A stretch of 64,000 nt of DNA. Source: Phycisphaerales bacterium. Its GTDB lineage: Bacteria > Planctomycetota > Phycisphaerae > Phycisphaerales > UBA1924. Position numbers and translations under genes: made by a program. The stretch lies in contig DASPKU010000006.1 of NCBI GenBank assembly GCA_035627955.1, forward strand, positions 248,001-312,000, read 5' to 3'. Numbering within the stretch: the stretch's first letter is position 1; each line of letters starts with the position of its first letter. Shown here piece by piece: positions 35,840-59,528 of the stretch. The notes under the pieces were generated by a model. It saw only the letters and a program-made list of their open reading frames with translations. It was not told the DNA's origin and ran no database searches.

Positions 35840-37762
35840 GTGCCCCAGGTCATCACCCCCAACCGCATCCGCACGCTGCCCACGCTCGTGGCGAATCAGA
35901 TCGCCGCGGGCGAGGTGGTGGAGCGCCCGGCCTCGGTGGTGAAGGAGTGTGTCGAGAACTCGATCGACGCCGGCGCTACCCGCATCACCGTCGATCTCGA
36001 GCAGGGCGGCATCGAGCTGGTCCGCATCACCGATGACGGTTCAGGGATTGCCGAGGCCGACCTGCCCATGGCCATCGCCCCGCACGCCACCTCCAAGATC
36101 GTCAGCGCCCAGGACCTCGAGCGTGTCGCGACACTGGGCTTCCGCGGCGAGGCGTTGGCCTCGATCGCCAGCGTCGCGCGCCTTTCGATCCGATCGCGCA
36201 CGGCCGACCAGACCGGCGCCTTCGTCATCGAGGTCGATTGGGACCGCCACAACGTGAGCGGCAGCGACGGCGTCAAGCCTGCAGCGGGCCCGATCGGCAC
36301 CTGCATCACCGTCCGCAACCTGTTCTACAACACCCCCGCGCGGCGCAAGTTCCTCCGCACCGTCGGCACGGAGCAGGAGCGCTGCCTCGACGTCATGCGC
36401 CAGCTCGCGATGGCGCACCCCGCCATCGGCTTCCGCGCCACTTGCGATGGTCGGGTAGTGATGGACCTGCCGCCCGGCCAGTCCCCCCGCGATCGCGTCC
36501 TGGGGGTGCTCGGCGGCGAGCTCGAGGACCAGCTGCTGGAGGTCAACGCCGACGAGTTCGACGACAGCCGCGGCGTATCGCTCTGGGGCCTGGTCGGCCT
36601 TCCCGGCATCGCCCGCGGCACCAACAAGCACCAGTACGTCTTCGTCAACGGCCGCTGCGTCAAGGACCGCACGATCCAGCACGCGATTGCCGAGGCCTAC
36701 CGCGGGCTGATCGACCCCTCGCGCTACCCCACGGCCGTGCTGATGCTCGAGCTCTCGCCCGCGGGCGTCGACGTTAACGTGCACCCCGCGAAGGCGGAGG
36801 TGCGGTTCCGCGACGGGTCACTGGTGCACTCGGTGGTGCTGCGATCGGTACGCGAGGCGCTGCGGGCCGCGGACCTGACGCCATCAATCGCCCCGGCGTT
36901 CCGGCCGGTGGTGGGGGACGTGGCCCTGCCCGGCAGCGGGATGCTGACGCCACCGCCGGCGCAGGAGCCGCCGTCGCTCTCGCGTTTCGTCGAGTACTTC
37001 AAAGCACCGCAACCGGACGGTGTTTCGCAGCCGCTGAACTACACCGCGATGCGCGAGACGCTCAGCGAACCGCGATCTGCTGCCCCCACGAATCATGCGG
37101 GCGCCTCGCCTGTGGCGCAGGAGATTGTGCGGGCTGAAAGCCCGCCCCCCCGGTTTGAAGTGAAGCCCGTTGACCGCGTGCTGCAGGTCCACAACAGCTT
37201 CCTGGTGACGCAGGACGAGCAGGGCGTCGTCATCATCGACCAGCACGCCCTGCACGAGCGCGTGATGTTCGAGTACCTGCTCGCCCGCGTGTGGGCGGGC
37301 GGCCTCGAGAGCCAGCAGCTGCTCGCGCCGGCGGTGGTGCAGGTCGCCACCGCGCAGCTCGACCGCCTCGCCGACCTCACGCCGCTGCTGGAGAAGATCG
37401 GCATCAGCGTCTCGCCGCTGGGCAAGACCAGCGTGGGCGTGAACGCGTTCCCGAGTTTCCTTTTCGACCGCGGTGTCGACCCCATCGAGTTCATGCAGGA
37501 GCTGCTCGAAAAGGCCGAGACCGGCGCGCTGCGCGGGGCCGGCGTCGGCAAGGACGAGGGCGAGGCCGCACTCCGAGAGGTCCTCGACATGATGGCGTGC
37601 AAGGCCGCGGTGAAAGCCGGCGACCGCATGAGCGAACTCGAGCTCGCCGAGCTCGTCAAGCTCCGCGGCGAGGTGGAGCGCAGCAGCAACTGCCCCCACG
37701 GCCGCCCCACCAGCATCCGCCTCACGATCAAGGAACTCGAGAAGCTCTTCGGCAGAACGTGA
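35840..37762 (+). CDS. mutL: DNA mismatch repair protein MutL, endonuclease type
   Basis: 640 aa from GTG at 35840. GHKL ATPase motifs: ANQIAAGEVVERPASVVKEC, ENSIDAGA, DDGSGI, HATSKI and TLGFRGEALASI. The C-terminal domain has the endonuclease motif DQHA-LH-E-RVMF-E, plus ACKAAVKAGD and CPHGRPT, expected for metal-dependent nicking. This is the MutL found in organisms without MutH. The middle (about 355-440) is a Pro/Ser-rich linker. The gene ends shortly before tRNA-Arg. Confidence 0.95.
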   Translation: MPQVITPNRIRTLPTLVANQIAAGEVVERPASVVKECVENSIDAGATRITVDLEQGGIELVRITDDGSGIAEADLPMAIAPHATSKIVSAQDLERVATLGFRGEALASIASVARLSIRSRTADQTGAFVIEVDWDRHNVSGSDGVKPAAGPIGTCITVRNLFYNTPARRKFLRTVGTEQERCLDVMRQLAMAHPAIGFRATCDGRVVMDLPPGQSPRDRVLGVLGGELEDQLLEVNADEFDDSRGVSLWGLVGLPGIARGTNKHQYVFVNGRCVKDRTIQHAIAEAYRGLIDPSRYPTAVLMLELSPAGVDVNVHPAKAEVRFRDGSLVHSVVLRSVREALRAADLTPSIAPAFRPVVGDVALPGSGMLTPPPAQEPPSLSRFVEYFKAPQPDGVSQPLNYTAMRETLSEPRSAAPTNHAGASPVAQEIVRAESPPPRFEVKPVDRVLQVHNSFLVTQDEQGVVIIDQHALHERVMFEYLLARVWAGGLESQQLLAPAVVQVATAQLDRLADLTPLLEKIGISVSPLGKTSVGVNAFPSFLFDRGVDPIEFMQELLEKAETGALRGAGVGKDEGEAALREVLDMMACKAAVKAGDRMSELELAELVKLRGEVERSSNCPHGRPTSIRLTIKELEKLFGRT

Positions 37763-37846
37763 GCGGGCTTTGGCAGACCCGTGCGGGCCCGGGCAAGCGC
37801 GGCCTCATCCCGGCCCAGCTGGGCACGCACCTACCATCACCCCGTC

Positions 37847-37920
37847 GTCCCGGTAGCTCAGCTGGATAGAGCAGCGGTCTTCTAAATCGCAGGTCGTGCG
37901 TTCGAGTCGCACCCGGGACG
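37847..37920 (+). tRNA. tRNA-Arg (anticodon TCT), integration target
   Basis: 74 nt. Acceptor stem GTCCCGG/CCGGGAC with discriminator G; anticodon stem GCGGT/ATCGC with loop CTTCTAA, giving TCT; T arm GTGCG-TTCGAGT-CGCAC. CCA not encoded. From its anticodon stem onward it is repeated perfectly at 59477, marking this as the integration site of the adjacent island. Confidence 0.95.
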
Positions 37921-37925
37921 CTTTC
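37874..37925 (+). repeat. Left attachment repeat (52 bp), within tRNA-Arg
   Basis: Starts GCGGTCTTCTAAATCGCAGG and ends GGGACGCTTTC. Identical to 59477-59528. Left boundary of the proposed island. Confidence 0.9.
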
Positions 37926-37980
37926 GCTTTTGATCGCGCCAGGGTGCGCAACGTCGCACGATCCCGTGAAACGCAAGGGT

Positions 37981-39301
37981 TTATGGTCGCTGGTGGGCGC
38001 GTTGCCGACGGCCTGATCCTTGCGCCACGCCGCGCCCTCTTGCCTCGAATCGCGCCCAGAGTGCGGGCCTTGGTGCGGGGGTGTGACTGCGGACGCATCG
38101 GGCCGATGGTTGTCGGTTCCTGTTGCACGCATCCGCTCTGCTTCGCCTGTAGGACCCTTGCTGGTGGCGGGGAGTGCATCGAGGGCGGAGGTGAGGTCGT
38201 GCAGCCGCGTGTGGGTGTAGGTCCCAATCGTGAGCGCAGGAGTGCTGTGACGTGCCAGCTCTTGGGCCACCTTCACTGAGGCGCCCGACTGCACCAGCCG
38301 CGTGACGTACCCGTGCCGAAGGCTGTGGAAGTCGGCGTAGCGGCCGCAGAATCGGCGTAGCACAGGAAATCCGACCTTTCCCGCCGATCACGTTCTCCGG
38401 GCGTAGCAGCCTCCTGGAGCCAGATGGCGCGGGCCGTCTCGAGGTCTGCCCTGAGGACCGCCGCGGCCTTGTCCTGGGGGAGTGGGCAGACTGGCTCCCC
38501 CGTCGGCTTGTTCGCCAGCCATGGGGCCAGCGCATCCGCGAGGTCCTTGCGGATGGGTTGCACATCCCGCCGCTTGCGTTTGGAGTACCCCGCCTCCACC
38601 GTAACCGTGGGCGGATCGCCAGCGAGGTCGAAGGACTCCGGGGTAAGGCTGGCGACCTCGCCCGCACGGAAGCCGGTGCCTGCGGCGATCAGGCACGCCC
38701 ACCTGCGATCAGGGCAAGTGACCCTCACGGTCGATGTCATCACTGGCTCCCCCGGTGCTGTGCGGTGGCGCCTGGGCACGGACACATGATCGGACGCCGC
38801 GGCTACGGCGACCACGCGATCGAGCTCTTCGGCGCTGAGGTCACGCCGCACGCGCCGACGGTCTGTCTGAATGCGCAGGCCGGAAGCCTGAAGGTTGAGA
38901 AGGGGGTCTACCGCCGTCCGCTTGTCCCTCGCCAGCCACCGCCCGAAGCCCTTCGCGGTCCGGATGTAGTGGTGCCGTGTTTGCAGTGACAGACCGGCTT
39001 TGCTCACAACCCCGGGGGTGCTCAGCTCCTGGATGGCGCTCATTATGAGGGAGGGCTGGAGGTCCGCAATCCTGGTCACCTTGGCACGATCGAGGATCTT
39101 GGTGAGCCTCGTCTCGGCTTCCTCGTGAGCAAAGGGACCGCCGAACGCACCGCGGACCATCTGCGGGCGGTCTGCGACACCAGCTGACGCTGCGGAACGA
39201 GCACGCCCCGCGCATCCTCGACTGCAGGCTAGGCAGGTAGCGGCGCATTGTGACGTGATGTAGACGGGCCGCGCACTGGGGGGGCAGCCGCGGCCCGTCA
39301 A
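37981..39301 (-). pseudogene. Tyrosine recombinase/integrase, truncated and frameshifted
   Basis: Two frames join into one XerC-like integrase. From 39301 downward: core-binding part TRIADLQPSLIMSAIQELST, then RHHYIRTAKGFGRWLARDKR, then the catalytic start GTGFRAGEVASLTPESFDL with its Arg. The frame breaks at about 38341-38347 after SDFLCYAD; a second frame continues RYADFHSLRHGYVTRLVQSG (HxxRH box) and VAQELARHSTPALTIGTYTH with the nucleophile Tyr. A single missing base in the CGGCCGC run explains the break. About 100 N-terminal residues usual for the family are also missing. The C-terminal frame has no stop before the tRNA and reads through it antisense to 37728. Confidence 0.85.
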
Positions 39302-39348: not shown

Positions 39349-40728
39349 TCAGCAGTTGCCCCCGCCCAGGACCCGGAAGAAGCTCTCGATATCCTGGTCC
39401 GTCCCGGAATCCCCGTCTGCGTTGAAGTCGCTGCCACCACTGAAGCAGCTAGCGCAGCAGCTCCCGCCGATGCAGGCGAAGAACGCCTCGATGTCCTGAT
39501 CGGTGCCCGAGTCCCCGTCGCCATTGAAGTCGGCGGTTCCGCAGCCTCGGGGGTATGCGGCGGCAGCGTCGAGTCGCCCGGCGCCGAGCTGGCCTACGTA
39601 GTCTGGGTTGAGGAGTGTGAGGTCGGCGGCGGTTTGCAGGATGCGGGACGGGTTGATTTTGGGAGTGCCGTTCTCAAGTGTGCCACCCGCCGCTAGAACA
39701 CCACTGACCCACGCGGCGGCGAAGCTCGTGCCGCTCGCGTAGGCGTAAAGATCACCGGGCAGGGTGCCGATCACGTTCACGCCGGGGGCAGAAACATCGA
39801 CCCAGGTCCCGTAGTTGCTGAAGCCAGCCTTGTAGTCGGAAAGGTCCGTTGCAGCGACGGCAAGGACACCAGGTGAAGCGGCGGGGTATTGCGGTTGAGC
39901 CGAGCCGCCGTTGCCAGCGGCCGCGATGATCGCGATGCCGCGGTTGCTGGCGTATGTGACAGCATCCCCAACGACAGTTGAGGGGACGGGAGCCGCAAAG
40001 GAGAGGTTGATGATGTCGGCTCCCGCATCAGCGGCGAAGTAGATCCCGCCCGCGACGGAGAAGGTTGTGCCAATGCCATCGCTGTTGAGGACTTTGACCG
40101 GGATCACCGCCGCATTGGGCGCCAGCAGGCCCGCGACTCCAGTCACAAACGTCCCATGGCCTGTGAGCTCGTCCACCAGACCGTCGGAGTCATCATCGAC
40201 ACCGTTGCCCACATCGCCCGCATTGATGGTCGATTCGATGAAGTTGTACCCGGGAAGCATCTGGTTGCTGATCCCGGTGTGGGTACTGACGCCTGTGTCC
40301 AGCACGGCGAGGCGAACGCCCCCGCCGGTGGCGGCGGGCGACATCCCCGGCGCATTGATTCGTTCGTGCGACGGCTGAGTCGGGAACAACTGCGGAAAGG
40401 CGTAAACGAAGAAGCTCTGGGTTGTTCCTTCGGGCGACGTGATGAACCTGTTCTGCTCGGCCGCCGACACACGCGGGTCGTTCTGGAGCTGGGCCCGCAT
40501 GGCCTGGGTATTTGCCGGCGAGTAGTTCTGTGGCGCCTGCAGGACATAAAGCTTCTTGGCTGGGTAGCTCGCGATCACCTGGGCGCCGAATGGCTGCGCT
40601 AGCGCCTCCGGACTCGCATCGCCTTGGAGGCGAATGACGACCTGCCTGGGCACGTCCGTGCCCGCGGTCTGAGCCAGTGCCGGCGAGACCAGGAGCGCGA
40701 AGAGGCAGAAGGATGATGCGTGCTTCAT
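39349..40728 (-). CDS. S8 (subtilisin) serine protease with GC-type dockerin tail
   Basis: 459 aa from ATG at 40728; its ATGA overlaps the stop of the CHAT gene. Sec signal MKHASSFCLFALLVSPALAQ. A propeptide-like region (about 25-95; VVIRLQGDASPEALAQPFGA) precedes the catalytic domain, with Asp144 (AVLDTGVSTH), His191 (TGHGTFVTGVAG), oxyanion Asn273 (AAAGNGG) and Ser335 (ASGTSFAAAWVSG), all intact. The tail (about 398-459) is two DFNGDGDSGTDQDIEAFF-type loops with paired Cys, the dockerin-like module of Phycisphaerae secreted proteins. Predicted secreted, calcium-binding protease, last gene of the sigma/CHAT operon. Confidence 0.92.
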   Translation of the reverse strand: MKHASSFCLFALLVSPALAQTAGTDVPRQVVIRLQGDASPEALAQPFGAQVIASYPAKKLYVLQAPQNYSPANTQAMRAQLQNDPRVSAAEQNRFITSPEGTTQSFFVYAFPQLFPTQPSHERINAPGMSPAATGGGVRLAVLDTGVSTHTGISNQMLPGYNFIESTINAGDVGNGVDDDSDGLVDELTGHGTFVTGVAGLLAPNAAVIPVKVLNSDGIGTTFSVAGGIYFAADAGADIINLSFAAPVPSTVVGDAVTYASNRGIAIIAAAGNGGSAQPQYPAASPGVLAVAATDLSDYKAGFSNYGTWVDVSAPGVNVIGTLPGDLYAYASGTSFAAAWVSGVLAAGGTLENGTPKINPSRILQTAADLTLLNPDYVGQLGAGRLDAAAAYPRGCGTADFNGDGDSGTDQDIEAFFACIGGSCCASCFSGGSDFNADGDSGTDQDIESFFRVLGGGNC

Positions 40729-43526
40729 GGTGTGCCTACGCAGATGAATGGCGCCCACGCGGCGGGGTGCCGCTCAACCCTGAACTCCCGAACGACCTTT
40801 GCGAGCGCCTCGGCCGGGCTGATCTGCTCCTGAGAATACAGGGTTGAGGCCAGAAGGGCCATCATTTCGGTGGTGGTCTGGTCGTGCACAGGCCAAAGGC
40901 TGATAACTGCGGTCTTTGCCCCACCCACCAACACCCCCCGAACGAGGCCGTAGCTCTCGTTAGCAGCATCAGTATCGGTCTGTCCTGTCCCACATCCGGA
41001 GAGCACGACGGCTGCGCCCGCAAGATCCATGGCCTGGAAGTCGCGCGCCGTCAGCCATCCGTCCGAGAGCTGGATGCCGGAGGCAAGCGGGTCAACGGCG
41101 TTGAACCGGGCGTGCCCGGCAATGTGCACGAATCCCGCCCCCTGCATGCCTCTCCGGACTTCGGCGCAGGTTGCTCGCGCCCCTGTGAGGAGAGTGCTGC
41201 CGGGCACCGCTCGATGGACCGCAACGGCTTCGGCTTCGATCTGGGGAGCGAGTTCGTCCCCTACTCCGACCACCAGGGAGGGGCCGCCTCTGGCCCGGGG
41301 AGTTCGTGCTCGCATCGCTGGCAGAATGCCGGCGCTGGGCACCTGAAGCACGGGCCGATCCAGCAAAGCCCCGAATGGGACCGCATGGAGGTAACCGTGG
41401 GGCACGACGATGGCGGACGAGTTGTTCGCAATCACCCTCGCGAGAGGAGCGATGAGCAGTGCGTGCAGGTCAGCCAAGGCCCCCCGACCATCATCGATGA
41501 GTCGGGGGCTCAGGCCACCAAAAGCGAGTCTGGGAATCGCCCGCTGCACTTGGAACTGGAGGCGCGACACCGCCTCGCGCGCGAGCGCTGCATCGCACAG
41601 CCCCCTCCTGACACAGAGGCTGCCTTGATGAGCCACGAACGCGGAGATGCTCGGGCCATCCTCAAAGTACTCGAGCAGCTGCCACCCGGGCGGGAGCTGC
41701 TCGAGCACGTCGGCAGCCTCAGGCGCTCGTGACAGCAGGTCCGCGTACCTGGGGTTCGAAGCGAGCCGCACCTCGAGCGACCGCAACTGTGCCTCAACAT
41801 GAGCAACGGAGGCCCGCCATTCGGTGAGCGCAGCATCGGAGACGAGCATTGCACTCTGACCATGCATCTTTGAATACAACGCGTTCAGGTCACCAATGAG
41901 CTGGTCGCGCTCTGCGCAGGTCCGGTCGGCGGCATCGAGCCCTCCGTTAGTGGCACGGTCCTCGTGCGCTGAGCCGAGGAGATCCAGGAGTGATCGGCTG
42001 CGACTCCGTTGCAGAAAGTTGTAAGCCTCCGCAGCATTCGACGCACTCTCATCCAAAAGCAGCCGGATCAGCTCCGAAAAAGCTGATACTCGCGCGGAAA
42101 GAAATGCGCCACGAAACAGTCCGCTGTGCAGCGTCGCCCGGGTCTTCTCCAGCACCGCGGTTGCTTCGCGGAGGTCTTTGATCGCGTCCGCCCGGTTCCC
42201 CTGAGCAAGATTCGCACGTGCGCGGGCCTTGTGAGCCGCGACAATGAGGGGCGGGATGGCGAGGTTCCTACCGGTCTCAAGAGCGAGGGCTGCGGTCGAT
42301 GCCGCTGCCGCGAAGTTCCCCTGCTGGATCTCGGCGTCCGCCTGCAGCACCTGCAGCCCCGCCTTATGCGCCGGTCGGTCCGCGACGAGGGGAAGCGCTC
42401 GACGGAGCAGGGCTGATGCTCGTGCGCCACCGCCGCGATGGATCGCAATCTCCGCCTGTGCCGCGAGCGCGTGGGCCTCGCCAACGGGATTGCGGAGCTG
42501 CCGGAAGGCGAGCGCCGCAGCGTCAAGGTACGGCACCGCCTCGTTAACCCGTCCCATTGCAATAAACGCACGCCCAAGGCCGACCCGCGCCCGGGCGGCC
42601 TCGCGGGGTAGTTGGTGCTTCTCGAGCTCGTCAATCGCCCTCTGGTAGTGCTCCACAGCCTCCGCGTGCATCCCGGAGTTGAGCATGGCTTCGGCCTGCT
42701 CGGCCCCGAGCCTTGCGATGTCACCTGGAGCGTCGCTCCCGAAGGCGGCGCGGGCGAGATCAAAGTGTGTGAGGGCTGCCTGGAGCTCGCCGCGCCGGGA
42801 GTGGTAGTCCGCCAGGTTTCCTTCAACGATCGCCGCCGCCCGCGAGGCCCCAGCTGCCCGGAAGTAGGCGAGCGCCGTTTGGAATGCGGCCGCGGCCGGC
42901 TCGAAGCGGTTGAGGTCGAGCAGCGCTTCAGCGGCATTGTTCTCCAGCTGTGCTGCGAGCATCGCGTGCGGGGAGACGTGCGGGCGAGCCCGGTCGAAGT
43001 GCTCGATCGCCTCCGCAGGATGGTCACGCATCCTGGCAACCACACCGAGGTTGATGTCCGCGCGGGCGGCCAGGAGGGCTTCCCCGGCATCGGCGAAGAT
43101 CGCGTGCGCCTGCCGGCCCACGGTGGCCGCCTCCTCCAACCGCCCCAGGCGCGCCAGGGCGTGCAGCGTGGTCATCCGGGCCAGCGCCGCCTCCACCGGG
43201 TGCGAGCCGGCATCAGCACACATGACAGCCTGGTTCAACGCAACAAGGGCGTCTTCAAACTGGTTGGCGTACGCGAGCACCTGCGCTCGTGCACGCCTGG
43301 CACGGGCCTTGGGATAAGGCAGATCGAGCGCATCGGCCGCGCCCACAAGCCTTAATGTGAGATCGAGTGCGCGGGCCAGGTCCTGCACGCCCACGGACTC
43401 GACCTGGTCAGCAATCAGAGAAAACTCGTGGACGGCATTCTGCCCCAGGATAGCGCGCGCAAACTCCTCGGGCGGCGACACCGCCAGCAACTGCACCCAC
43501 TGCGTGCCCCCAGAAGTCTGTGTCAT
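40725..43526 (-). CDS. TPR-CHAT protease
   Basis: 933 aa from ATG at 43526, overlapping the upstream stop as ATGA. Residues about 50-480 are tetratricopeptide repeats (ALDLTLRLVGAADALDLPYP, ALVALNQAVMCADAGSHPVE, EAVEHYQRAIDELEKHQLPR, AVPYLDAAALAFRQLRNPVG and others). The C-terminal caspase-like CHAT domain has the catalytic His near 805 (GFVHIAGHARF) and Cys near 845 (VVLSGCGTG), then GGAKTAVISLWPVHD. No signal peptide, so cytoplasmic. TPR-CHAT proteins are caspase relatives, some of which act in defence or regulated cell death. Coupled upstream to a regulator-like gene and downstream to a secreted subtilisin. Confidence 0.92.
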   Translation of the reverse strand: MTQTSGGTQWVQLLAVSPPEEFARAILGQNAVHEFSLIADQVESVGVQDLARALDLTLRLVGAADALDLPYPKARARRARAQVLAYANQFEDALVALNQAVMCADAGSHPVEAALARMTTLHALARLGRLEEAATVGRQAHAIFADAGEALLAARADINLGVVARMRDHPAEAIEHFDRARPHVSPHAMLAAQLENNAAEALLDLNRFEPAAAAFQTALAYFRAAGASRAAAIVEGNLADYHSRRGELQAALTHFDLARAAFGSDAPGDIARLGAEQAEAMLNSGMHAEAVEHYQRAIDELEKHQLPREAARARVGLGRAFIAMGRVNEAVPYLDAAALAFRQLRNPVGEAHALAAQAEIAIHRGGGARASALLRRALPLVADRPAHKAGLQVLQADAEIQQGNFAAAASTAALALETGRNLAIPPLIVAAHKARARANLAQGNRADAIKDLREATAVLEKTRATLHSGLFRGAFLSARVSAFSELIRLLLDESASNAAEAYNFLQRSRSRSLLDLLGSAHEDRATNGGLDAADRTCAERDQLIGDLNALYSKMHGQSAMLVSDAALTEWRASVAHVEAQLRSLEVRLASNPRYADLLSRAPEAADVLEQLPPGWQLLEYFEDGPSISAFVAHQGSLCVRRGLCDAALAREAVSRLQFQVQRAIPRLAFGGLSPRLIDDGRGALADLHALLIAPLARVIANNSSAIVVPHGYLHAVPFGALLDRPVLQVPSAGILPAMRARTPRARGGPSLVVGVGDELAPQIEAEAVAVHRAVPGSTLLTGARATCAEVRRGMQGAGFVHIAGHARFNAVDPLASGIQLSDGWLTARDFQAMDLAGAAVVLSGCGTGQTDTDAANESYGLVRGVLVGGAKTAVISLWPVHDQTTTEMMALLASTLYSQEQISPAEALAKVVREFRVERHPAAWAPFICVGTP

Positions 43527-44092
43527 CCCACATGTATATCCGGCGCGACCACCCACTCAGCCCCGACCAGCGCCATGAGGTCGTAGGTGCCGGGCTGACA
43601 ATCGAGCGAGAAAATGCCCCCTGGACCCGGCTCGATGACTTCGAGGACCGTCCCGTCCGCCTTGGCGGTGAGCACAATGGCAACAACCGGGTTAGTTCCT
43701 GCAGGGTCAACTTGCCCCCGGATCGTGAACCCGTCACCGGCAGGGACAACCTTCACGTCAATCTCGGCGCTCGCCGAGGTGTAAGCCCTGTGTTCCAGGG
43801 AGGCCCGGCCGCGGAACCCTTGCAGAACAGGAGCACCGGGGGGCGTGAGGAGCCTGGCGATCACCCGGCTGGTGCGGGACAGCAAGTCACGAATTGTTGT
43901 GGTGGACGCGAGAAGACGCTCCGACTCGGCGGCCATGCCGGGCTCCGGGTCGGGGCAAAGTCGGCAGATCTCGTCGATGTACTGGGCGAGCCCGGCCGGA
44001 GTCTTCTGGGGAACCGGCGTAGCGCCGGGCCCCTGCAACGGACGCTCAAGAAGCTCCGCGATGTGCTGTTCAAGCTCAAGTTCCGGCGCCAT
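43523..44092 (-). CDS. Small protein with C-terminal prealbumin-like beta domain
   Basis: 189 aa. The N-terminal half is helical (MAPELELEQHIAELLERPLQ, GLAQYIDEICRLCPDPEP). The C-terminal 80 residues (SAEIDVKVVPAGDGFTIRGQ, VLEVIEPGPGGIFSLDCQPG, TYDLMALVGAEWVVAPDIHV) have the strand pattern of a carboxypeptidase-regulatory/transthyretin-like fold. No membrane segment. Located between the ECF sigma factor and the CHAT gene, whose start it overlaps by 4 nt. In that position it could be a regulator or an adaptor; the function is not recognised. Confidence 0.75.
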   Translation of the reverse strand: MAPELELEQHIAELLERPLQGPGATPVPQKTPAGLAQYIDEICRLCPDPEPGMAAESERLLASTTTIRDLLSRTSRVIARLLTPPGAPVLQGFRGRASLEHRAYTSASAEIDVKVVPAGDGFTIRGQVDPAGTNPVVAIVLTAKADGTVLEVIEPGPGGIFSLDCQPGTYDLMALVGAEWVVAPDIHVG

Positions 44093-44161
44093 GCGTTCTC
44101 CCCCGGCGAGTCCGCCGTGTCTCGTCCAAAGGAGTCAAGCTCGGGGCTTCGTGATACACGG

Positions 44162-44719
44162 TCACGGTCTTTTCTCGCCGAGGGTCGGGTCGAGGATCAT
44201 CAGGAGTTTGGCCAGGCAGCGGTTGCGCGTTGGGCCGATACTCCCGACCGGGATGCCCAGCCGTTGCGAGATCTCGTCATAGGAGACGGGCTGCCGCGCT
44301 AGATAGAGCGCTTTCAGTAACTGCTCGCACCTGCCGCCCAGCGTGTCCAGAGCGCCACGGATTTTTGCCTGGAGTTCGGCGCGTTCGACCAGCTCGTCGG
44401 CAGCTCCATCTGTGGGCATTCCCGCCGGGGCCGCGCTCTCCCATCGGTGGTGGCGAGTCCACTTCCAGCACTCCCGTGTCGCCGTCGTGACCAGCCACTT
44501 GGACAGTGCCTGAGCGTCCCTCAGCGTGTGCAGGTTGCGCACCAGCGCGAGAAAGGTGGATTGGAACACATCATCGCAGCCCTCCGGCGGAAGTCCCTGG
44601 GAATGAGGAACGAAGTAGACCAGGCGCCGGTAACGCCCAACCAGCGCGGCCCATGCCCGCTCGTTCCCTTGAGTTGCCGCCTGAATGAGGGCCTGGTCGG
44701 AGTCCAATCGCTCAAGCAT
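44162..44719 (-). CDS. ECF-type RNA polymerase sigma factor
   Basis: 185 aa from ATG at 44719; the frame extends upstream but that part is non-coding in composition. Region 2: ALIQAATQGNERAWAALVGR, YRRLVYFVPHSQGLPPEGCD and DVFQSTFLALVRNLHTLRD. Region 4: ALDTLGGRCEQLLKALYLAR, SYDEISQRLGIPVGSIGPTR and NRCLAKLLMIL. It heads the minus-strand operon 44719-39349 and probably directs its transcription, perhaps also that of the divergent kelch gene (inference). No membrane anti-sigma factor is adjacent. Confidence 0.9.
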   Translation of the reverse strand: MLERLDSDQALIQAATQGNERAWAALVGRYRRLVYFVPHSQGLPPEGCDDVFQSTFLALVRNLHTLRDAQALSKWLVTTATRECWKWTRHHRWESAAPAGMPTDGAADELVERAELQAKIRGALDTLGGRCEQLLKALYLARQPVSYDEISQRLGIPVGSIGPTRNRCLAKLLMILDPTLGEKRP

Positions 44720-44780: not shown

Positions 44781-47084
44781 ATGCGCGTTTCGCTTTGGTC
44801 CGGGGTCTGGTGTGCGTTGGGCCTGGTGGTGGGGCTCGGGGCAGGGGAACGCAGCGCCTCCGCGCAGTGCGACTGGGTCAACCGCACGCCCGGGCCGGGC
44901 GGGCGGGTGTACCACGCCATGGCCTTCGATACTGCCCGCGGGGTCGCAGTCACCTTCGGGGGTGACGACTCCGGCGGCTACAACAGCCAGACCTGGGAGT
45001 GGAATGGGTCGGCGTGGAATCTGCGGGGAACGAGCGGGTTCGGTGGCCTGACCGGGCGAGATGCGCACGGGATTGCGTACGACGCTGCCCGGGGCGTGAC
45101 GGTCCTCTATGGCGGGTTCAACGGCTTCACCTACACGAACCAGACCTGGGAGTGGAACGGGGGGGGGCCGGGCTCGTGGACGATGCGGGGCGGGGCCTCG
45201 CCGATCGCGCGGGGGTCGCCCGCGATCGCCTACGACAGTGCGCGGAACCAAGTCGTGATGTTCGGCGGCTACACCTTGTTCAGCCTGGCGGGCGACACCT
45301 GGGTACTGGGCGCGAACGGGTGGACGGCGCGCGCCGGCGGGGGCCCCTCCGGGCGGGGAGCGGCAGCGATGGCGTTTGATTCCGCGCGCGGAGTGATGGT
45401 CCTGTTCGGCGGCGACACGGGCGTGGTCAACGGCGAAACATGGGAGTGGAATGGGACATCGTGGACCCAGCGTCAGGTGTCCGGCCCAGCGCCTAGGTGC
45501 TTCCACGCGATGGCGTACGACGCCGCGCGGGGCGTGACGGTGCTCTTCGGCGGATACCTCGCGGGGAACTACAGCGGCGAGACGTGGGAGTGGAACGGGA
45601 CGAGCTGGACCCTGCGGTCGAGCGGCGGGCCCTCACCCCGGGGCGGGCCCGCGATGGTGTACGACAACGTGCGGCAGCAGTGCGTGCTGTACGGCGGCGA
45701 GGACGGTGCTTACAGCGCACAGACCTGGGGCTGGAACGGCACAGCGTGGACGCTGCTGAGCGGCCCCGCGCAGCCTGCACGGGCGTACACCGCAATGGCG
45801 TACGACGCCGCGCGGAACGAGACCATCATGTTCGGCGGTGACACGGCTCAAGGGCCGAGCGCCGCGACGCTGGCGTGGAACCCCGGCGCGGGCGTCTGGA
45901 CGGCGAAGCCCGTGACGGGGCCGAGCGCACGGTCGGGGCATGCAATGGCGTACGAGGATGGACGCTCGCAGCTCGTCCTGTTTGGCGGCGCCGCCGGCAC
46001 GACGGAGTTCGGAGACACCTGGGCGTGGAATGGAGCTGGCTGGGTTCTTCGCATCTCCGCCGGTCCATCGGCGAGGCACGGGACTGCGCTGGCCCATGAT
46101 GAGGGGCGCGGAGTGACGGTGCTGTTCGGTGGTATCACCGGGAATAACAGCCTTCACGCGGACACCTGGGAGTGGAACGGTTCCGCGTGGGCGCAACGGG
46201 CCGTCAGCGGACCCACGGCCCGGCACCGGCACGCCATGGCCTATGACCGTCACCGCGGGGTGACGGTGCTGTTCGGCGGCGAGACCGCAGGGGGCGCCGG
46301 CGGTTCAGCAAGCGGTGAGACCTGGGAGTGGAATGGCAACACCTGGTCCCTAGTGTCCTCCAGCGGTCCTTCCGCGCGGTCGGGTGGAACGCTGGTCTAT
46401 GACGAGCTGGCAGGGGCGGTGCTGCTGTACGGCGGTGTAGACATCAACGGGTACCCGGCGCCGACATGGCAGTGGGACGGCGCGAACTGGTCCATCAGGA
46501 GCAGCAACGGACCGGGCGGGCGCGATGCGCCGGCAATGGCGTACGACCGTATCCGCGGCGTCGTCGTGATGTCAGGCGGGTTCGATGCGAGCTACGCGAG
46601 CGACACCTGGGAGCTCCGCTCGGGGCGGCCGGCCGTTCAGTCGCTGGCGGGCGCCGTTTCGCTCACGCCGGGCCAGCCACTGGTGCTCACGGTGGAGGCG
46701 TCCGGCGCGGAGGCGTTCCAGTGGCGTCGTGCGGGGGTGTCGCTGAGCAATGGGGGGCGCGTGAGCGGCGCGACGACGGCGTCCCTCGTCATCAGCCCGG
46801 CGGAGGAGGGTGATGCGGGAACGTACGATGTTGTTCTCTCCAACGCGTGCGGGAGCACCACCTCTGGCGAAGTGGTCGTGAGCATGGGGCAGCCCGGGTG
46901 CACGGCCGACTTCAACGGCGATGGTGACACGGGCACGGACCAGGATATCGAGGCCTTCTTCGCGTGCATCGGTGGAACGTGCTGCGCCACTTGCGGCCCC
47001 GCTGACTTCAACATGGACGGCGATACGGGGACCGATCAGGACATCGAGAGCTTCTTCAGGGTGCTCGGGGGCGGCCCATGCTGA
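44781..47084 (+). CDS. Secreted kelch-like repeat protein with Ig-like and dockerin-type C-terminus
   Basis: 767 aa, GGGAGGG before the ATG. Signal peptide about 1-28 (ALGLVVGLGAGERSASA). About eleven repeats of roughly 50 residues span 38-615. Their core is AMAYDAARGVTVLFGG, then GETWEWNGTSWTLR and GPSPRGG, the kelch/galactose-oxidase propeller pattern. An Ig-like domain follows (about 617-705; SLTPGQPLVLTVEASGAEAF, EEGDAGTYDVVLSNACG), then a GC-type dockerin (FNGDGDTGTDQDIEAFFACI and a second copy). Likely a surface or secreted binding protein. Its stop overlaps the pseudopilin start by 7 nt. Confidence 0.9.
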   Translation: MRVSLWSGVWCALGLVVGLGAGERSASAQCDWVNRTPGPGGRVYHAMAFDTARGVAVTFGGDDSGGYNSQTWEWNGSAWNLRGTSGFGGLTGRDAHGIAYDAARGVTVLYGGFNGFTYTNQTWEWNGGGPGSWTMRGGASPIARGSPAIAYDSARNQVVMFGGYTLFSLAGDTWVLGANGWTARAGGGPSGRGAAAMAFDSARGVMVLFGGDTGVVNGETWEWNGTSWTQRQVSGPAPRCFHAMAYDAARGVTVLFGGYLAGNYSGETWEWNGTSWTLRSSGGPSPRGGPAMVYDNVRQQCVLYGGEDGAYSAQTWGWNGTAWTLLSGPAQPARAYTAMAYDAARNETIMFGGDTAQGPSAATLAWNPGAGVWTAKPVTGPSARSGHAMAYEDGRSQLVLFGGAAGTTEFGDTWAWNGAGWVLRISAGPSARHGTALAHDEGRGVTVLFGGITGNNSLHADTWEWNGSAWAQRAVSGPTARHRHAMAYDRHRGVTVLFGGETAGGAGGSASGETWEWNGNTWSLVSSSGPSARSGGTLVYDELAGAVLLYGGVDINGYPAPTWQWDGANWSIRSSNGPGGRDAPAMAYDRIRGVVVMSGGFDASYASDTWELRSGRPAVQSLAGAVSLTPGQPLVLTVEASGAEAFQWRRAGVSLSNGGRVSGATTASLVISPAEEGDAGTYDVVLSNACGSTTSGEVVVSMGQPGCTADFNGDGDTGTDQDIEAFFACIGGTCCATCGPADFNMDGDTGTDQDIESFFRVLGGGPC

Positions 47085-48754: not shown

Positions 48755-51259
48755 GTGACGGCCGTCTCCCATACCCCGACGCCGGTGATCAACGACTCCT
48801 CGCGTGCAGCCCGCGTGCGTGCGGCGGGCAAGTTCCTCTTCGAGGGCGACCGCAAGTTCTACGTCAAAGGCGTGACCTACGGGCCGTTCCGGCCCGGTCC
48901 GGAGGGGGAATACCACACGCGGGAGCGGGTGGCAGCCGACTTCCGGAACATGGCCGCAGCGGGGATCAACACGGTCCGGGTATACACGATGCCTCCGCGC
49001 TGGATGCTGGACCTTGCGAGTGCGGAGGGACTGCGGGTGCTGCTAGGTGCGGCGTGGGCTCAGCACCTGAACTTCGTTGAAGACCGTCGCCTGCGGCGCG
49101 AGAGCATTGACGCCGTCGTGCGCATGGCGCGAGAATACCGCGGTCACCCCGGCGTGCTTGCGTACTGCATCGGTAACGAGGTCCCAGCACCAGTGGTTCG
49201 GTGGTATGGCTATCGGCGCATCGAGGCCCACCTGCGGCACTTGTCCGACGCTTGCAAACAGGCCGACCCGGACACGCTGGTCACGTACGTGAACTATCCA
49301 TCGACCGAGTACCTGGAGCTTCCGTTCCTCGACTTCCTCTCATTCAACGTGTTCCTGGAGGACCGCGTCAAGCTGGAGAGGTACCTCGCCCGGATTCAGA
49401 ACCTGGCCGGCGAGCGGCCCCTGCTCTTGACGGAGATCGGGCTGGACAGCCTGCGGAACGGTGAGGGTGTTCAGGCGGCGTCGCTCTCATGGCAGGTGCG
49501 AGCGGCCTTCGCCACGGGTTGTGCCGGCGCGTGCGTGTTCTCGTGGACGGATGAATGGCACCGCGGGGGCGAGGACATCCTCGATTGGCGCTTCGGCCTG
49601 ACCCGCGCGGACCGCACGCCAAAGCCCGCCCTCAGCGCGGTTCGCTCTGCTTTTGCGGAGGCGCCGTGCCTGGCCCGGCGGCCTCTCCCCAGAGCGACAG
49701 TGGTGGTCTGCACGTACAACGGCTCGAGGACCATCCGTGAGACGCTGGAAGCGCTTGCACGCCTCGATTACCCCGATTTCGAGGTGATCGTCGTCAACGA
49801 CGGCTCCACAGATTGCGCCGGCGAGATCGCGGCGGAGTTCCCCTTCCGGGTCATCACCACCGAGAACCGCGGGCTGAGCGCTGCCCGCAACACCGGCTGG
49901 ATGGAGGCGACGGGGGAGGTCATTGCCTATGTGGATGATGATGCCGCACCTGATCCCCAGTGGCTGCAGTACCTCGCGGCCACGCTCCTGGACGGGCACG
50001 CCGGCGCGGGCGGGCCGAATCTCCATGTGCCCAGCGATGGTCCGACGGCGACGTGCGTGAGTGCCACCCCCGGGAACCCGACCCACGTTCTGCTCTCGGA
50101 CACGGTCGCGGAGCACGTTCCAGGTTGCAACATGGCCTATTGGCGGTGGGCGCTGGAGGCAATCGGCGGGTTCGACCATCAGTTCAGAATCGCGGGGGAT
50201 GACGTAGACGTGTGCTGGCGCCTGCAGGACCGGGGCTGGACACTGGGATTCAGCCCGGCGGCCCAGGTGTGGCATCACCGGCGCGGCTCAGTGAGGAGTT
50301 TCTGGCGACAGCAGCGCAACTACGGGCGTGCCGAGGCCGACCTGGAGCGGAAGTGGCCGGAGAAGTACAACGCGGTGGGCCACGCCCGCTGGGCCGGACG
50401 GCTGTACGCGGGAGGGTCGCCGCCCTCGCTCGCGCCCTCGCGGAGAAGGATCTACCACGGCGTGTGGGGCATGGCGCTGTTCCAGCATGTCTACCCCACC
50501 GACCGCTCACTCCTATGGGCTCTGCCGGCGATGCCCGAGTGGCACGGCGTGTCCATCGGGCTGGCCGTGCTCGCGATGCTAGGGATCATTTGGCCGGGGA
50601 TGCTTCTGTTCGCGGGCATTCTCGGTTGCATGCTGGTATTCGCGGGTGTGCAGGCGTGCGTTCACGCGGCACGAGCACCGGTTGATTGCCGTTGGAGGGG
50701 CATGCGCCTGATCGGGATGCGGGCGCTGATCGCGTTCCTGTACCTCATGCAACCGATGGCGCGGTTTGTTGGTCGGGTGCAGGAGGGGCTGACTCCGTGG
50801 CGATTCCGCGGCGTTCACGGGTTCGCATTGCCGCGTAGTTCCACGATCCAGCATTGGTCGGCTCACTGGAGAGACCCGTTCCAGCGGCTCGCCGACCTTG
50901 AGGGCGCACTGCGACAGGGTGGTGCGGTCGTGGTTCGCGGGCACGAGTTCGCGGGTTGGGACCTGGAGCTCCGGGGCGGGCTCGTTGGGCGGGTCAGGGT
51001 CCGGCAGTTCACCTCTGACCTGCCGAAGCGTGTCCAGTGGGTGCGATGGGATGGCCACCCGCGGGTCGCCCCACTTGGGACCTGCGTGTTCCTCGTGCTG
51101 CTGGGTGTGTGCTGGGTCGCAACGCGTCAGGGTGAGTACATACTGGCGAGCGCCGGCTGGCTTGCCGGCGCGATTCTGGCGGTGCTCGCGATTCGGGAGA
51201 TCGGGGCCGCGATGGCAACGTTCAGGCGGGTGGCGGAGGGGCTGGAGAAGGGGAAGTGA
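48755..51259 (+). CDS. Fused glycoside-hydrolase-like domain and family 2 glycosyltransferase, membrane protein
   Basis: 834 aa from GTG at 48755. Residues about 25-310 are a TIM-barrel glycosidase-like domain: FYVKGVTYGPFRPG, NTVRVYTMPPRWMLD, YCIGNEVPAP with a candidate acid/base Glu, and LLTEIGLDSLRN with a candidate nucleophile Glu. Residues about 315-560 are a GT2 domain: TVVVCTYNGSRTIRETLEAL, IVVNDGSTDC, AYVDDDAAPDPQW, GCNMAYWRWALEAIGGFD and GDDVDVCWRLQ. Hydrophobic segments follow near 610-650 and at about 770-800. Probable membrane enzyme that adds and trims sugar units. Stop overlaps the next gene (GTGA). Confidence 0.9.
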   Translation: MTAVSHTPTPVINDSSRAARVRAAGKFLFEGDRKFYVKGVTYGPFRPGPEGEYHTRERVAADFRNMAAAGINTVRVYTMPPRWMLDLASAEGLRVLLGAAWAQHLNFVEDRRLRRESIDAVVRMAREYRGHPGVLAYCIGNEVPAPVVRWYGYRRIEAHLRHLSDACKQADPDTLVTYVNYPSTEYLELPFLDFLSFNVFLEDRVKLERYLARIQNLAGERPLLLTEIGLDSLRNGEGVQAASLSWQVRAAFATGCAGACVFSWTDEWHRGGEDILDWRFGLTRADRTPKPALSAVRSAFAEAPCLARRPLPRATVVVCTYNGSRTIRETLEALARLDYPDFEVIVVNDGSTDCAGEIAAEFPFRVITTENRGLSAARNTGWMEATGEVIAYVDDDAAPDPQWLQYLAATLLDGHAGAGGPNLHVPSDGPTATCVSATPGNPTHVLLSDTVAEHVPGCNMAYWRWALEAIGGFDHQFRIAGDDVDVCWRLQDRGWTLGFSPAAQVWHHRRGSVRSFWRQQRNYGRAEADLERKWPEKYNAVGHARWAGRLYAGGSPPSLAPSRRRIYHGVWGMALFQHVYPTDRSLLWALPAMPEWHGVSIGLAVLAMLGIIWPGMLLFAGILGCMLVFAGVQACVHAARAPVDCRWRGMRLIGMRALIAFLYLMQPMARFVGRVQEGLTPWRFRGVHGFALPRSSTIQHWSAHWRDPFQRLADLEGALRQGGAVVVRGHEFAGWDLELRGGLVGRVRVRQFTSDLPKRVQWVRWDGHPRVAPLGTCVFLVLLGVCWVATRQGEYILASAGWLAGAILAVLAIREIGAAMATFRRVAEGLEKGK

Positions 51260-53064
51260 GCGTCGCGCCTGGCCAACACGGGGCATGGAGAGCGGCCCTC
51301 AAGGCCGCCCCGCTACCGGCGCGGAAACTGGCGGGGATGTGGCTCCTGACGCTGGCATCGTCCGCGTTCGCTCTGCTTCAACCCTGGCCGGTGCAGGTGA
51401 TCGTGGATTCTCTGGTCGGCAGCGCTCCCGGGTGGAGTGGAACGTTCGCTGATCTCATCCCAGGGGCAGACACGACGCGGGGTGTGGCGGCGTGGGCCGC
51501 GGCCGCGGCGGTGGTCATCTTCGCCCTCGATGCCTGGGTTGATGTTGCGCTGACGATGCGGTGGGTGCGCGTCGGACAGGGAGGGGTCTACCGGCTGGGG
51601 CGAGTGGTCTTCGCCAGGCTGCTTCGCCGGTCGCCGGTGTTCCACGCCCGCACACCCGTTGGCGATTCGGTGGGGCGGGTGACCGGGGACTCGTGGTGCG
51701 TGTACAACGCCGCCTCGTCGCTGCTCTTCGCACCCATGCAGGCGCTGGTCGTGGGGCTGGGGAGCGCGGCCATCATGCTGCGGCTGAACCCGTGGCTGGG
51801 CGCCGTCGCTCTGGCGAGCACGCCGGGCGTAGCGTGGCTCTCGATCGTCCTTGGGCGGCGGGCTCACCGGGCGAAGTCGGAGGAGCGGCAGAGCGAAGCG
51901 AGGTTGGAGTCGCATGTCCACCAGACCTTTGCGGGCTTGGCCGTTGTGCAGGCATTCGCTCAGGAGCATCGCGAGCAGGCGAGATTCGGATCTCTCACGG
52001 CCGAGACGCTCAGGACGCAGCGGAGGACCGCGGTTCTCGGCGCCATGGCAGGTGCAGGGGCGAGTGGTGTGGCCACCCTTGCCCTGGCCGGCGTGCTGCT
52101 TCTGGGGGCGCGCGAGGTTCTGTCGGGCCGTCTGACTGTCGGCATGCTGCTGGTGTTCATCGCCTACCAGACCACCCTCACCGGGCAGCTCTCATCCCTG
52201 GCGTCGGCGTGGACCTCCGCCAGGGGCATGACCGCGAGCGCGGAGCGTGTTGCCGAGGTCATTGGCACACGGCCAGAGGTCGAAGAAGGGGGCGCGCCGA
52301 TGCCGCCAGCGGCCGCGCTTGGCGTGAGGTTCGACCGGGTTAGCTTCGCGTATGAGCCCGGACGGCCCGTGCTCGAGGAGGTTTCCTTCGCCATCTCACC
52401 GGGCGAGACGGTGGCGATCGTCGGCCCGAGTGGAGCGGGCAAGAGCACGCTCGCGATGCTGGTCGCCCGATTGATCGACCCGCAGGCGGGCACCGTCCGC
52501 ATCGGCGGCGTGGACGCGAGGGATGCCGACCTGCGGGAGCTCCGCTCCCGGGTTGCGGTACTGTTCCAGGAACCGCAGCTGCTCGACGGCACGGTCGCGG
52601 AGAACATCCGGATCGGACGGCCGGATGCCTCCGACGAGGAGGTCGTGAGCGCCGCCCGAACGGCTGGCGCTCATGACTTCATCACACGTCTTTCGGACGG
52701 CTACGCGACTGAGATCGGGTCCCGCGGACACACACTTTCTGGCGGTGAACGGCAGCGGCTGGCGCTCGCGAGGGCGCTGGTCCGAAAGGCACCCATCCTG
52801 GTGCTAGATGAGCCCACCGCCAGCCTTGACGCCGCGACCGAACGCTCGCTCATCGATGCGCTTGAAACCGCCTGTGAGGGGCGGACCACCATCATCATCG
52901 CCCACCGCCTCTCCACCGTCAGGAGGGCGGACCGGATTGTGGTGCTCGCCGACGCACGCATCCACGAGTCGGGCGCGCATGACGCACTGCTCAATGCGGG
53001 TGGGCTCTACGCGAGGATGTGGCGCCGCCAGTGCGGGCATGAGCCCGTCGGGGGGGTGGCATGA
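51256..53064 (+). CDS. ABC exporter, permease-ATPase fusion (first of two)
   Basis: 602 aa from GTG overlapping the previous stop. Six-TM exporter domain (1-about 330; FADLIPGADTTRGVAAWAAA, TPVGDSVGRVTGDSW) and an ATPase domain with Walker [20 protein letters not shown], signature [15 protein letters not shown], Walker B ILVLDEPTASLD and switch IIAHRLSTV, all intact. Type IV (MsbA-like) half-transporter, probably heterodimeric with the next gene, exporting a glycolipid or glycan intermediate (inference from context). Confidence 0.9.
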   Translation: MSVAPGQHGAWRAALKAAPLPARKLAGMWLLTLASSAFALLQPWPVQVIVDSLVGSAPGWSGTFADLIPGADTTRGVAAWAAAAAVVIFALDAWVDVALTMRWVRVGQGGVYRLGRVVFARLLRRSPVFHARTPVGDSVGRVTGDSWCVYNAASSLLFAPMQALVVGLGSAAIMLRLNPWLGAVALASTPGVAWLSIVLGRRAHRAKSEERQSEARLESHVHQTFAGLAVVQAFAQEHREQARFGSLTAETLRTQRRTAVLGAMAGAGASGVATLALAGVLLLGAREVLSGRLTVGMLLVFIAYQTTLTGQLSSLASAWTSARGMTASAERVAEVIGTRPEVEEGGAPMPPAAALGVRFDRVSFAYEPGRPVLEEVSFAISPGETVAIVGPSGAGKSTLAMLVARLIDPQAGTVRIGGVDARDADLRELRSRVAVLFQEPQLLDGTVAENIRIGRPDASDEEVVSAARTAGAHDFITRLSDGYATEIGSRGHTLSGGERQRLALARALVRKAPILVLDEPTASLDAATERSLIDALETACEGRTTIIIAHRLSTVRRADRIVVLADARIHESGAHDALLNAGGLYARMWRRQCGHEPVGGVA

Positions 53065-54875
53065 GACCGGCCCCGCAGCCGCTCTGGAAGTGGGTGCTCA
53101 CCTACGGCCGCCGACGCCGCGCGGGACTGGGCGTGCTCGCGTGGCTCATGCTGGCGGAGGCGGCGCTGAGCGCGCTGCTCCCGTGGCCGATGAAGGTGCT
53201 GGTGGACAATGTGCTGGGAACCGAGCCGCTCCCGGCTCCGCTCTCGTCGATCACCGAGGGATGGGGAACCTGGGGCCTGATTGGCGCCGCAGTCCTGTGT
53301 GTCGTGTGCGTTCACGGCGCCGTCAGCCTGCTCAATGTCGCGCAGGCCGGGCTGAACACCTCCGTTGGACAGCGGCTCTCGTACGACCTGGCGGCGGATG
53401 TGTACGCCCAGTTGCAGGGCCTTTCGCTCAGGTCACACGCGAGGCGCTCGATCGGTGACCTGATGCGGCGGGTCACCGAGGACTGCACCTCGATCACGAC
53501 GATTCTCCGCGACTCCCTCCTTCCTGCGGCCGCCGCGGTCGTGACGATCGCCATCGCCGCCGGCATGATGCTGGCACTCAATGTGAAGCTCACCTTGCTC
53601 GCCGCGATCGCGGTACCTGCCCTCGCGCTGATCGTGCGCCGCTACACACCCGCCATCTACGACCGCGGCTATGAGTATGCCCAGTCGGAAGCGGACATCT
53701 GGGACGACGCGGAACGGTCGCTGGTCGCCGCGCCCATGCTCCAGGCCTTCACCGCGGAGCCGCTGGCAGAGGCGAGGATCTCGCGGACGTACGACCGTGT
53801 ACTCACGAGCGCGGTGGCGTTGACACGCGCGCAGTTCCGCCTGAAGGTGCTCAGTGGGGCGGTGGCCTCCGTCGCGGGAGCGGGCATGCTGATCGTCGGT
53901 GCACACGAGGTGCAGAGCGGCAGGCTGACGGTGGGAGGCTTGCTCGTGTTCCTGGCCTACCTTGCCATGCTATATGCGCCACTCGACACGCTCTCTCAGT
54001 CGATGAGCAGCGGCACGCAGGCGGCGGGGGCCGCGCGGCGGGTGCGCGAGGTGCTGGAGGAGCAGCAGGAGGTCCACGATCTTCCAGGCGCTGCAGCGCT
54101 GGCCATTCCTCCCACGAAGGCCGCCGAGGTTGAGTTCCGTTGCGTCACCTGGGGGTACGAGCCCGGGCGTGCTGCAATCAATGGCGTCGATCTCAGGCTC
54201 CCGGCCGGACGCACGGTGGCCCTGGTGGGGCCGAGCGGCGCGGGCAAGAGTACGCTCGCGGCCATGATCGCCCGCCTGTGCGATCCATGGTCTGGCGAAG
54301 TGCGGGTCGAAGGCGCAGACGTGCGCGACCTGACGGTGCGCAGCGTCCGCGACCACGTCGCGTTGGTGCAGCAGGAGACCTACCTGTTCCCGATGAGCGT
54401 GGCCGACAACATCGCGTACGGGCGGCCGGGCGCAACGATGGATGAGGTGGCGGCCGCCGCGAAGGCGGCCGGCATCCACGACCACATCAACTCGCTCCCG
54501 CAGCGCTACCAGACCGTCGTGGGAGAGCGTGGGGCCACGCTCTCCGGGGGTGAGCGTCAGCGGATTGCCATCGCGCGGGCGCTGCTGAAGAACGCGCCCA
54601 TTCTGATCCTCGATGAGCCGACCAGCGCACTCGATGCCATGACCGAGGCAAGCATCCTGGAGGCCCTCCGCGCCGCGCGCCGGGGCCGCACCACCCTGGT
54701 CATCGCCCACAGGCTGGCCACGGTGCGGCATGCAGACCGGATCATCGTCATGGAGCGCGGAAGGATCGTGGCGAGCGGCACGCACGAGGAGCTTGTAACG
54801 GCCGGCGGGTGGTACGCCGAAATGTGCCGTTTGCAGCTGGGAGAGCCCGCAACAGGAGGGCCCGCGCATGGCTGA
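53061..54875 (+). CDS. ABC exporter, permease-ATPase fusion (second of two)
   Basis: 604 aa; ATGA overlap with the preceding exporter. TM domain about 1-320 with [20 protein letters not shown]. ATPase domain: Walker [21 protein letters not shown]-loop [13 protein letters not shown], signature [15 protein letters not shown], Walker [13 protein letters not shown] and switch VIAHRLATV. Adjacent half-transporters with overlapping genes usually pair as a heterodimer. Confidence 0.9.
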
Positions 54876-55431: not shown

Positions 55432-55432
55432 G

Positions 55433-57167: not shown

Positions 57168-57180
57168 GGGGGTGTATGCG

Positions 57181-59476: not shown

Positions 59477-59528
59477 GCGGTCTTCTAAATCGCAGGTCGT
59501 GCGTTCGAGTCGCACCCGGGACGCTTTC
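59477..59528 (+). repeat. Right attachment repeat (52 bp), 3' part of tRNA-Arg
   Basis: Perfect copy of 37874-37925. It lacks the 5' part of the tRNA, so it is not a functional gene. Its last bases supply the stop codon region of the adjacent minus-strand gene. The stretch 59251-59476 before it holds no feature I can support. Confidence 0.9.

Follow-up and report, generated by a model that had tools for sequence, protein, structure and literature searches.

The window, by which we mean the whole 64,000-nucleotide stretch of DNA that was analysed, holds four minus-strand genes encoding an ECF sigma factor, a small protein of 189 aa, a TPR-CHAT protease and an S8 subtilisin (Table 1). The preliminary description had placed these four genes here with the last three linked by ATGA overlaps, and all were present, with coordinates and Pfam matches in agreement. 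The overlaps join genes 2 and 3 and genes 3 and 4, and the gap between the sigma gene and the 189-aa gene is 69 bp. Both profile matches bore out the ECF assignment of the first gene, and an orthologous sigma gene adjoins the CHAT genes of relatives. A divergent gene for a secreted Kelch/Ig protein starts 61 bp from the sigma start and is at most a candidate member of the module.

Table 1. Operon genes, divergent neighbour and tRNA island features (positions within the window)
Feature	Position	Strand	Evidence or remark
tRNA-Arg(tct), attachment site	37847..37921	+	ARAGORN
attL, 52 bp	37874..37925	+	exact direct repeat of tRNA-Arg 3' part
Tyrosine integrase in two frames (38273-39301, 37728-38363)	37728..39301	-	Phage_integrase E 0.003, 8.4e-7
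S8 subtilisin, 459 aa, signal peptide, Fervidolysin-type prodomain	39349..40728	-	PF00082 (Peptidase_S8) E 1e-35
TPR-CHAT protease, cytoplasmic, 933 aa, His805/Cys845	40725..43526	-	PF12770 E 9.9e-37 + TPRs
Soluble anti-sigma-like protein, 189 aa	43523..44092	-	helical N-half + transthyretin/CarboxypepD_reg-like beta-sandwich
ECF sigma factor, 185 aa	44162..44719	-, start 44719	TIGR02937 E 9.5e-20, Sigma70_r2 E 3.7e-8
Divergent neighbour: secreted Kelch/Ig protein	44781..47084	+	same C-terminal tail as subtilisin
attR, 52 bp, far island end	59477..59528	+	exact direct repeat

The operon had been suggested to lie on a tRNA island, and this agrees with the 52-bp exact att repeat at tRNA-Arg, for which no match was obtained in 100 shuffles; the operon sits inside the resulting ~21.6 kb. 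The island integrase, read in two frames, is probably decayed. The cargo of the island includes glycosyltransferases, two ABC exporters, hexapeptide acetyltransferases and pilin-like or Kelch proteins, with a polysaccharide/export cluster at about 48755-58209. In two genomes of the same family (G002 and G172) the module and mutL were on different contigs, so the location of the module varies between relatives.

The third gene had been called a TPR-CHAT protease with intact His/Cys, and the Pfam match, the TPRs and the alignments all supported this. All 13 aligned sequences share the dyad, and so do all 72 module rows, compared with 49 of the 58 rows from other CHATs; these row counts, like the tally of 75 small proteins given below, include the repeats L043/L076, L046/L075 and L058/L089, apparently the same contigs to judge by their identical lengths. 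The nearest solved CHAT structures were those of Csx29/TPR-CHAT of type III-E CRISPR. The 933-aa protein matched 115 of 246 sampled phylum genomes (E<=0.001), with many of these matches confined to the CHAT or TPR parts, and its best near-full-length relatives showed 29-34% identity.

The claim of a secreted subtilisin with an intact triad also stood: the window protein carried the Asp, His and Ser motifs, a Fervidolysin_NPro-like prodomain (Pfam) and a signal-peptide-like N-terminus. Such N-termini were found on the S8 proteins of most loci as well, as called by a simple hydrophobicity scan that also picked the start codon and is not a dedicated predictor. Asp, His and Ser lay in one piece in 47 S8 rows; the rest were split, and a few were truncated or incomplete. 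The dockerin tail proposed for the subtilisin did not survive, as no Pfam dockerin match was obtained at E<=1 and the same tail occurs genome-wide. This Cys-rich, C-terminal tail of ~64 aa is found on the subtilisin (39349-39543) and on the Kelch protein, and in at least 150 places in the genome, which ruled out the dockerin meaning and makes the tail uninformative about the subtilisin specifically. Neither Pfam nor NCBIfam gave it a name at the thresholds applied, and it is predicted to be a genome-wide sorting or anchoring tail.

The absence of conserved gene order in other genomes had been named as the finding that would speak against a joint module. Forty neighbourhoods (L035-L074) were fetched from phylum CHAT matches and 80 named loci (L075-L154) via the CHAT alignment, and the loci were scanned with profiles of the sigma, the small protein, CHAT and S8. 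The module recurred, with all four genes in 45 loci examined, in Planctomycetota, Acidobacteriota, Chloroflexota and Actinomycetota. The four genes form a widely shared module and not a local arrangement. Three gene orders were observed: sigma-small-CHAT-S8, as in the window, S8-sigma-small-CHAT, and sigma-CHAT-small-S8, which is that of most acidobacterial loci. Over the 45 four-gene loci the pairwise distances correlated (r 0.52-0.75), and for every pair 0 of 999 permutations reached a value as high; the correlated distances show co-inheritance, with host relatedness not separated out.

The tally of CHAT contexts covered the named loci L075-L154 and the window, leaving aside L035-L074, and 54 of 87 CHAT hits had enough flank. 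The small gene was present in 32 of the 54 contexts; 28 of these 32 also contained sigma, 27 contained S8 and 25 contained both. The other 22 contexts contained sigma in 5 cases and S8 in 1. Among the 40 neighbourhoods L035-L074, sigma, CHAT and S8 occurred together in 14, CHAT and S8 without a same-strand sigma in 9, and CHAT with only the small gene in 5. The remaining 12 had CHAT without S8 or the small gene, including the second CHAT gene of the window genome (L069). Divergent sigma-like ORFs in L108, L111 and L118 gave no Pfam sigma match, and that of L109 was matched only by our own sigma profile (E 7e-6).

The main correction to the preliminary description concerns the 189-aa protein. 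It had been described as having a transthyretin-like C-terminus; the C-half is indeed modelled by AF2 as a confident beta-sandwich (pLDDT mostly >90), but the N-half (pLDDT ~50) had been left uninterpreted, and the family is one of predicted anti-sigma factors. Against Pfam the window protein gave no confident match, the best being Cohesin (E 0.0053), below the cut-off. As a lone query the gene reached 2 of 294 phylum genomes, one of them its own; this route was given up, and the family was reached through its neighbours instead. Relatives adjoining a sigma gene spanned about 160-240 aa. When 40 relatives were aligned, the N-half often carried an HL...C-x2-C motif and the C-half an invariant Arg and a G-x-F beta-sandwich motif; at E<=0.1, Pfam matched CarboxypepD_reg in 19 of the 40 and zf-HC2 in 11.

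The whole-family profile (A3) matched solved zinc-finger anti-sigma (ZAS) proteins and beta-sandwich domains in the PDB. A profile of the N-terminus only (33 sequences) gave stronger matches, to the solved anti-sigmas RslA (3hug, 2.9e-6), DdvA (7.4e-5), ChrR (2.8e-4) and RsiW (2.1e-3); we take 3hug, whose entry title is 'probable conserved membrane protein', to be RslA. The same profile matched 8rot/8rw5, a 991-aa 'CHAT domain-containing protein' in which the letters of residues 5-55 are identical to the DdvA anti-sigma entry 8rlz. The entry 8rot is thus presumably full-length DdvA, with the ZAS and CHAT halves fused in nature. No fused ZAS-CHAT gene was found among the fetched loci, the sole fusion seen being the PDB entry. 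From these profile matches we assign the family firmly as putative soluble anti-sigma factors with an N-terminal ZAS domain and a beta-sandwich. For the window copy we only infer an anti-sigma role, because its zinc ligands are missing and the N-half of its model is not confident.

The occurrence of the two domains was related to the gene context. Among 75 small proteins (the repeats included), 49 with a long N-terminus had a sigma gene within 6 kb and 9 did not; of those consisting of the beta-sandwich only, 1 had a sigma gene within this distance and 16 did not. The single short protein with a sigma gene comes second in a tandem pair in L055, and in two of the nine long proteins without one (L093 and L107) the contig begins at or near the CHAT gene. 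The long N-terminus goes with sigma, which ties the anti-sigma domain to the neighbouring sigma gene. The H-x(3-5)-C-x2-C zinc ligands were present in 43 of 58 long members and missing in 15. They were not found in the window copy, nor in its same-family relatives L035 and L036, and the zinc-motif small proteins of L041, L042 and L052 had no sigma detected nearby. AF2 modelled the L090 relative with a mean pLDDT of 88 as four N-terminal helices followed by a beta-sandwich, residues 1-40 reaching 93-97. Foldseek searches with the window and L090 models returned no match at E<=0.001; among the 50 matches listed, mainly beta-sandwich proteins and no anti-sigma were seen.

A sigma-controlled pair of proteases, CHAT and subtilisin, had been proposed for the locus. 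This is supported in outline, but the anti-sigma identity of the small protein's family had been missed. With an anti-sigma family as the second gene, the sigma factor no longer simply turns on a pair of proteases; the logic becomes that of a sigma/anti-sigma switch linked to one protease and accompanied by another that is exported. We give about an even chance (roughly 50%) to a switch in which CHAT cuts the small protein and the freed sigma drives the subtilisin. In the resting cell, judging by family membership, the small protein would bind and silence its ECF sigma. The cytoplasmic TPR-CHAT protein would sense a cue through its TPR repeats, and its His/Cys dyad may then cut the small protein at a site that is probably within the beta-sandwich or close to it. 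The freed sigma would transcribe the operon including the exported subtilisin, which would then act outside the cell. TPR-CHAT would in this way relieve the anti-sigma, probably by cutting; the published analogues are CASP-sigma/Csx30/Csx29 and DdvS/DdvA of Myxococcus. In L037-L040 and L054 a beta-sandwich-only small protein was found with CHAT, and no sigma or S8 was detected; these pairs are a possible sigma-free version of the module. As the beta-sandwich pairs with CHAT even where sigma is absent, these loci fit the beta-sandwich being the part that CHAT recognises.

A promoter for the sigma factor was sought in the acidobacterial loci, and none was established by the two-block or GTACYATTG searches. 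A two-block promoter 5' of S8 in 17 of these loci was not accepted, as the best pair covered 4 sequences and up to 3 were reached in 20 shuffles. In the gap that precedes S8, the sequence GTACYATTG was observed in seven of the acidobacterial loci (L077 at 10117, L078 at 4233, L079 at 10088, L082 at 10175, L098 at 10328, L102 at 8415 and L107 at 1848), in several of them ~40 nt after another GTACC/GTACT element. Chance alone would give about 14.6 occurrences across the whole 954 kb of L075-L154, where 13 were listed, so this possible cis-element is only a lead.

The Modestobacter locus (L129) has the order sigma-small-CHAT-S8, and Modestobacter presumably belongs to the same family as Geodermatophilus. 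The model protein of the group ECF54 is from Geodermatophilus amargosae; in the available excerpt of PMC8999054, the ECF54 context is given as carboxypeptidase, subtilase and CHAT proteins, with proteolytic control without an anti-sigma proposed. The likeness to our module is one of gene context: in both the sigma gene adjoins CHAT, subtilase and 'carboxypeptidase'-domain genes. ECF54 is listed there without an anti-sigma, whereas here the CarboxypepD_reg-like protein carries a ZAS domain at the family level (PMC8999054). ECF270 and ECF271 of Acidobacteria and Chloroflexi are described in the same excerpt with ZAS soluble regulators. Compared by description only, they resemble our acidobacterial and chloroflexal sigmas with such regulators, but the excerpt mentions no CHAT or subtilase for them (PMC8999054).

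In Craspase, Csx29 cuts Csx30, which inhibits the ECF factor CASP-sigma; Csx30 is cleaved within its C-terminal part and binds sigma by its N-terminal part (excerpt of PMC10028731). The same three roles are found here, with an ECF sigma, a separate putative inhibitor and a TPR-CHAT protein with intact His/Cys. Our module differs in having no Cas7-11, crRNA or RNA trigger and in the addition of a subtilisin; no Cas7-11 or CRISPR array was found among the genes annotated around the operon, by gene annotation only. Csx30 was not among the 15 PDB matches (E<=10) of profile A3, so the small protein is at most a candidate homologue of Csx30. In Myxococcus, DdvA is the anti-sigma of DdvS (excerpt of PMC4374960), and DdvS controls an antiphage island (excerpt of PMC12288465). 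The DdvS/DdvA pair of Myxococcus xanthus likewise couples an ECF sigma and a ZAS anti-sigma to a CHAT protein, but DdvA holds ZAS and CHAT in one polypeptide (8rot vs 8rlz), and the 60 listed matches of CHAT profile A1 did not include its CHAT. To our knowledge, no subtilisin belongs to this pair.

In the literature searched we found no account of these four genes as a module in which the small protein acts as an anti-sigma; part of this picture may be recorded in Casas-Pastor 2021 or Huang 2015, the sources of PMC8999054. Going by the excerpt of the latter, the CHAT/subtilase/'carboxypeptidase' context is already on record for ECF54, and the proposed anti-sigma role of the small gene is what is added here. 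It would turn an uninterpreted 'carboxypeptidase-like' neighbour gene into a testable anti-sigma candidate and give ECF54-like systems a concrete proposed mechanism. The module also offers a CRISPR-free setting for learning the triggers and substrates of TPR-CHAT proteins and, if the switch is true, hints at the origin of the Craspase signalling arm.

Several other explanations were weighed against this switch. Control without any anti-sigma, with CHAT or the subtilisin degrading sigma itself, is what the excerpt of PMC8999054 states for ECF54 from gene context. We consider it very unlikely here, as the N-terminal domain of the small gene matches four solved anti-sigmas and accompanies sigma genes, and the subtilisin is exported according to the signal-peptide scan. 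A second explanation is extracellular proteolysis with peptide uptake, as a regulated nutrient or peptide-signal loop: peptides released by the secreted subtilisin would be imported by an oligopeptide ABC transporter and read by TPR-CHAT, which would set the sigma/anti-sigma switch. TPR proteins of the Rap/NprR type read peptides, although the likeness of the CHAT TPRs to these is generic. The gene immediately upstream of sigma is of the SBP_bac_5 type in 12 acidobacterial loci (L077, L079, L081, L082, L084, L087, L092, L094, L098, L102, L105 and L127), in 11 of which a permease was also detected. Pfam identified an ABC ATPase, a permease and an SBP in L077, where the SBP gene end meets the sigma start, and the Chloroflexi locus L108 reads small-CHAT-S8-SBP-permease. 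These neighbours point to peptides as substrate or signal in the acidobacterial lineage, and the signal peptides on S8 in most loci fit export. However, the transporter link is mostly confined to one lineage. L083 has the same gene-order type and no SBP, no peptide transporter of the SBP/permease type adjoins the operon in the window, and none was present in the examined Actinomycetota or most Planctomycetota. L064 also has SBP and permease, yet its CHAT is of a different, secreted type. We regard the peptide loop as rather unlikely.

Defence or programmed death, both raised in the preliminary description, found no direct support. A defence or stress switch, in which CHAT senses phage or cell damage and releases sigma for a protective regulon, is suggested by analogy only: DdvS has its antiphage island (excerpt of PMC12288465) and DdvA shares its ZAS domain with the CHAT protein 8rot, and CASP-sigma/Csx30/Csx29 belongs to type III-E CRISPR. 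The module also rides a tRNA island in the window, but the other island genes are glycosyltransferases, acetyltransferases and ABC exporters. PADLOC matched no system and returned only generic TPR and subtilase model hits; a defence role for the full island was rejected for want of a supporting gene in PADLOC and in the island annotation. A secreted subtilisin would moreover be an odd antiphage effector, and we hold this function unlikely. That activated CHAT kills the cell in caspase fashion seems highly improbable. CHAT is caspase-like, and EACC-type caspase systems with ECF sigma genes have been proposed for bacterial death (excerpt of PMC8195603), but no pore former, nuclease or toxin-like gene was present in the operon or the ten neighbouring genes scanned, and what constantly accompanies CHAT is an anti-sigma-like protein together with an exported protease.

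The switch with CHAT cutting the small protein may be extended, tentatively and with some doubt, to a widespread CRISPR-free relay. CHAT would cut a ZAS/beta-sandwich anti-sigma, sigma would be freed and the subtilisin made; in acidobacteria the loop would be closed by a peptide importer whose cargo activates CHAT. This module would be the older one, with the type III-E Craspase and the DdvA fusion as its specialised forms.

Two further arrangements were observed among the loci. In L041, L042, L043, L047, L048 and L052, two small proteins in tandem come after CHAT-S8, without a sigma detected nearby. Other CHAT lineages with signal-peptide-like N-termini (L139, L142 and L153) adjoin sigma genes and ZAS-like proteins.
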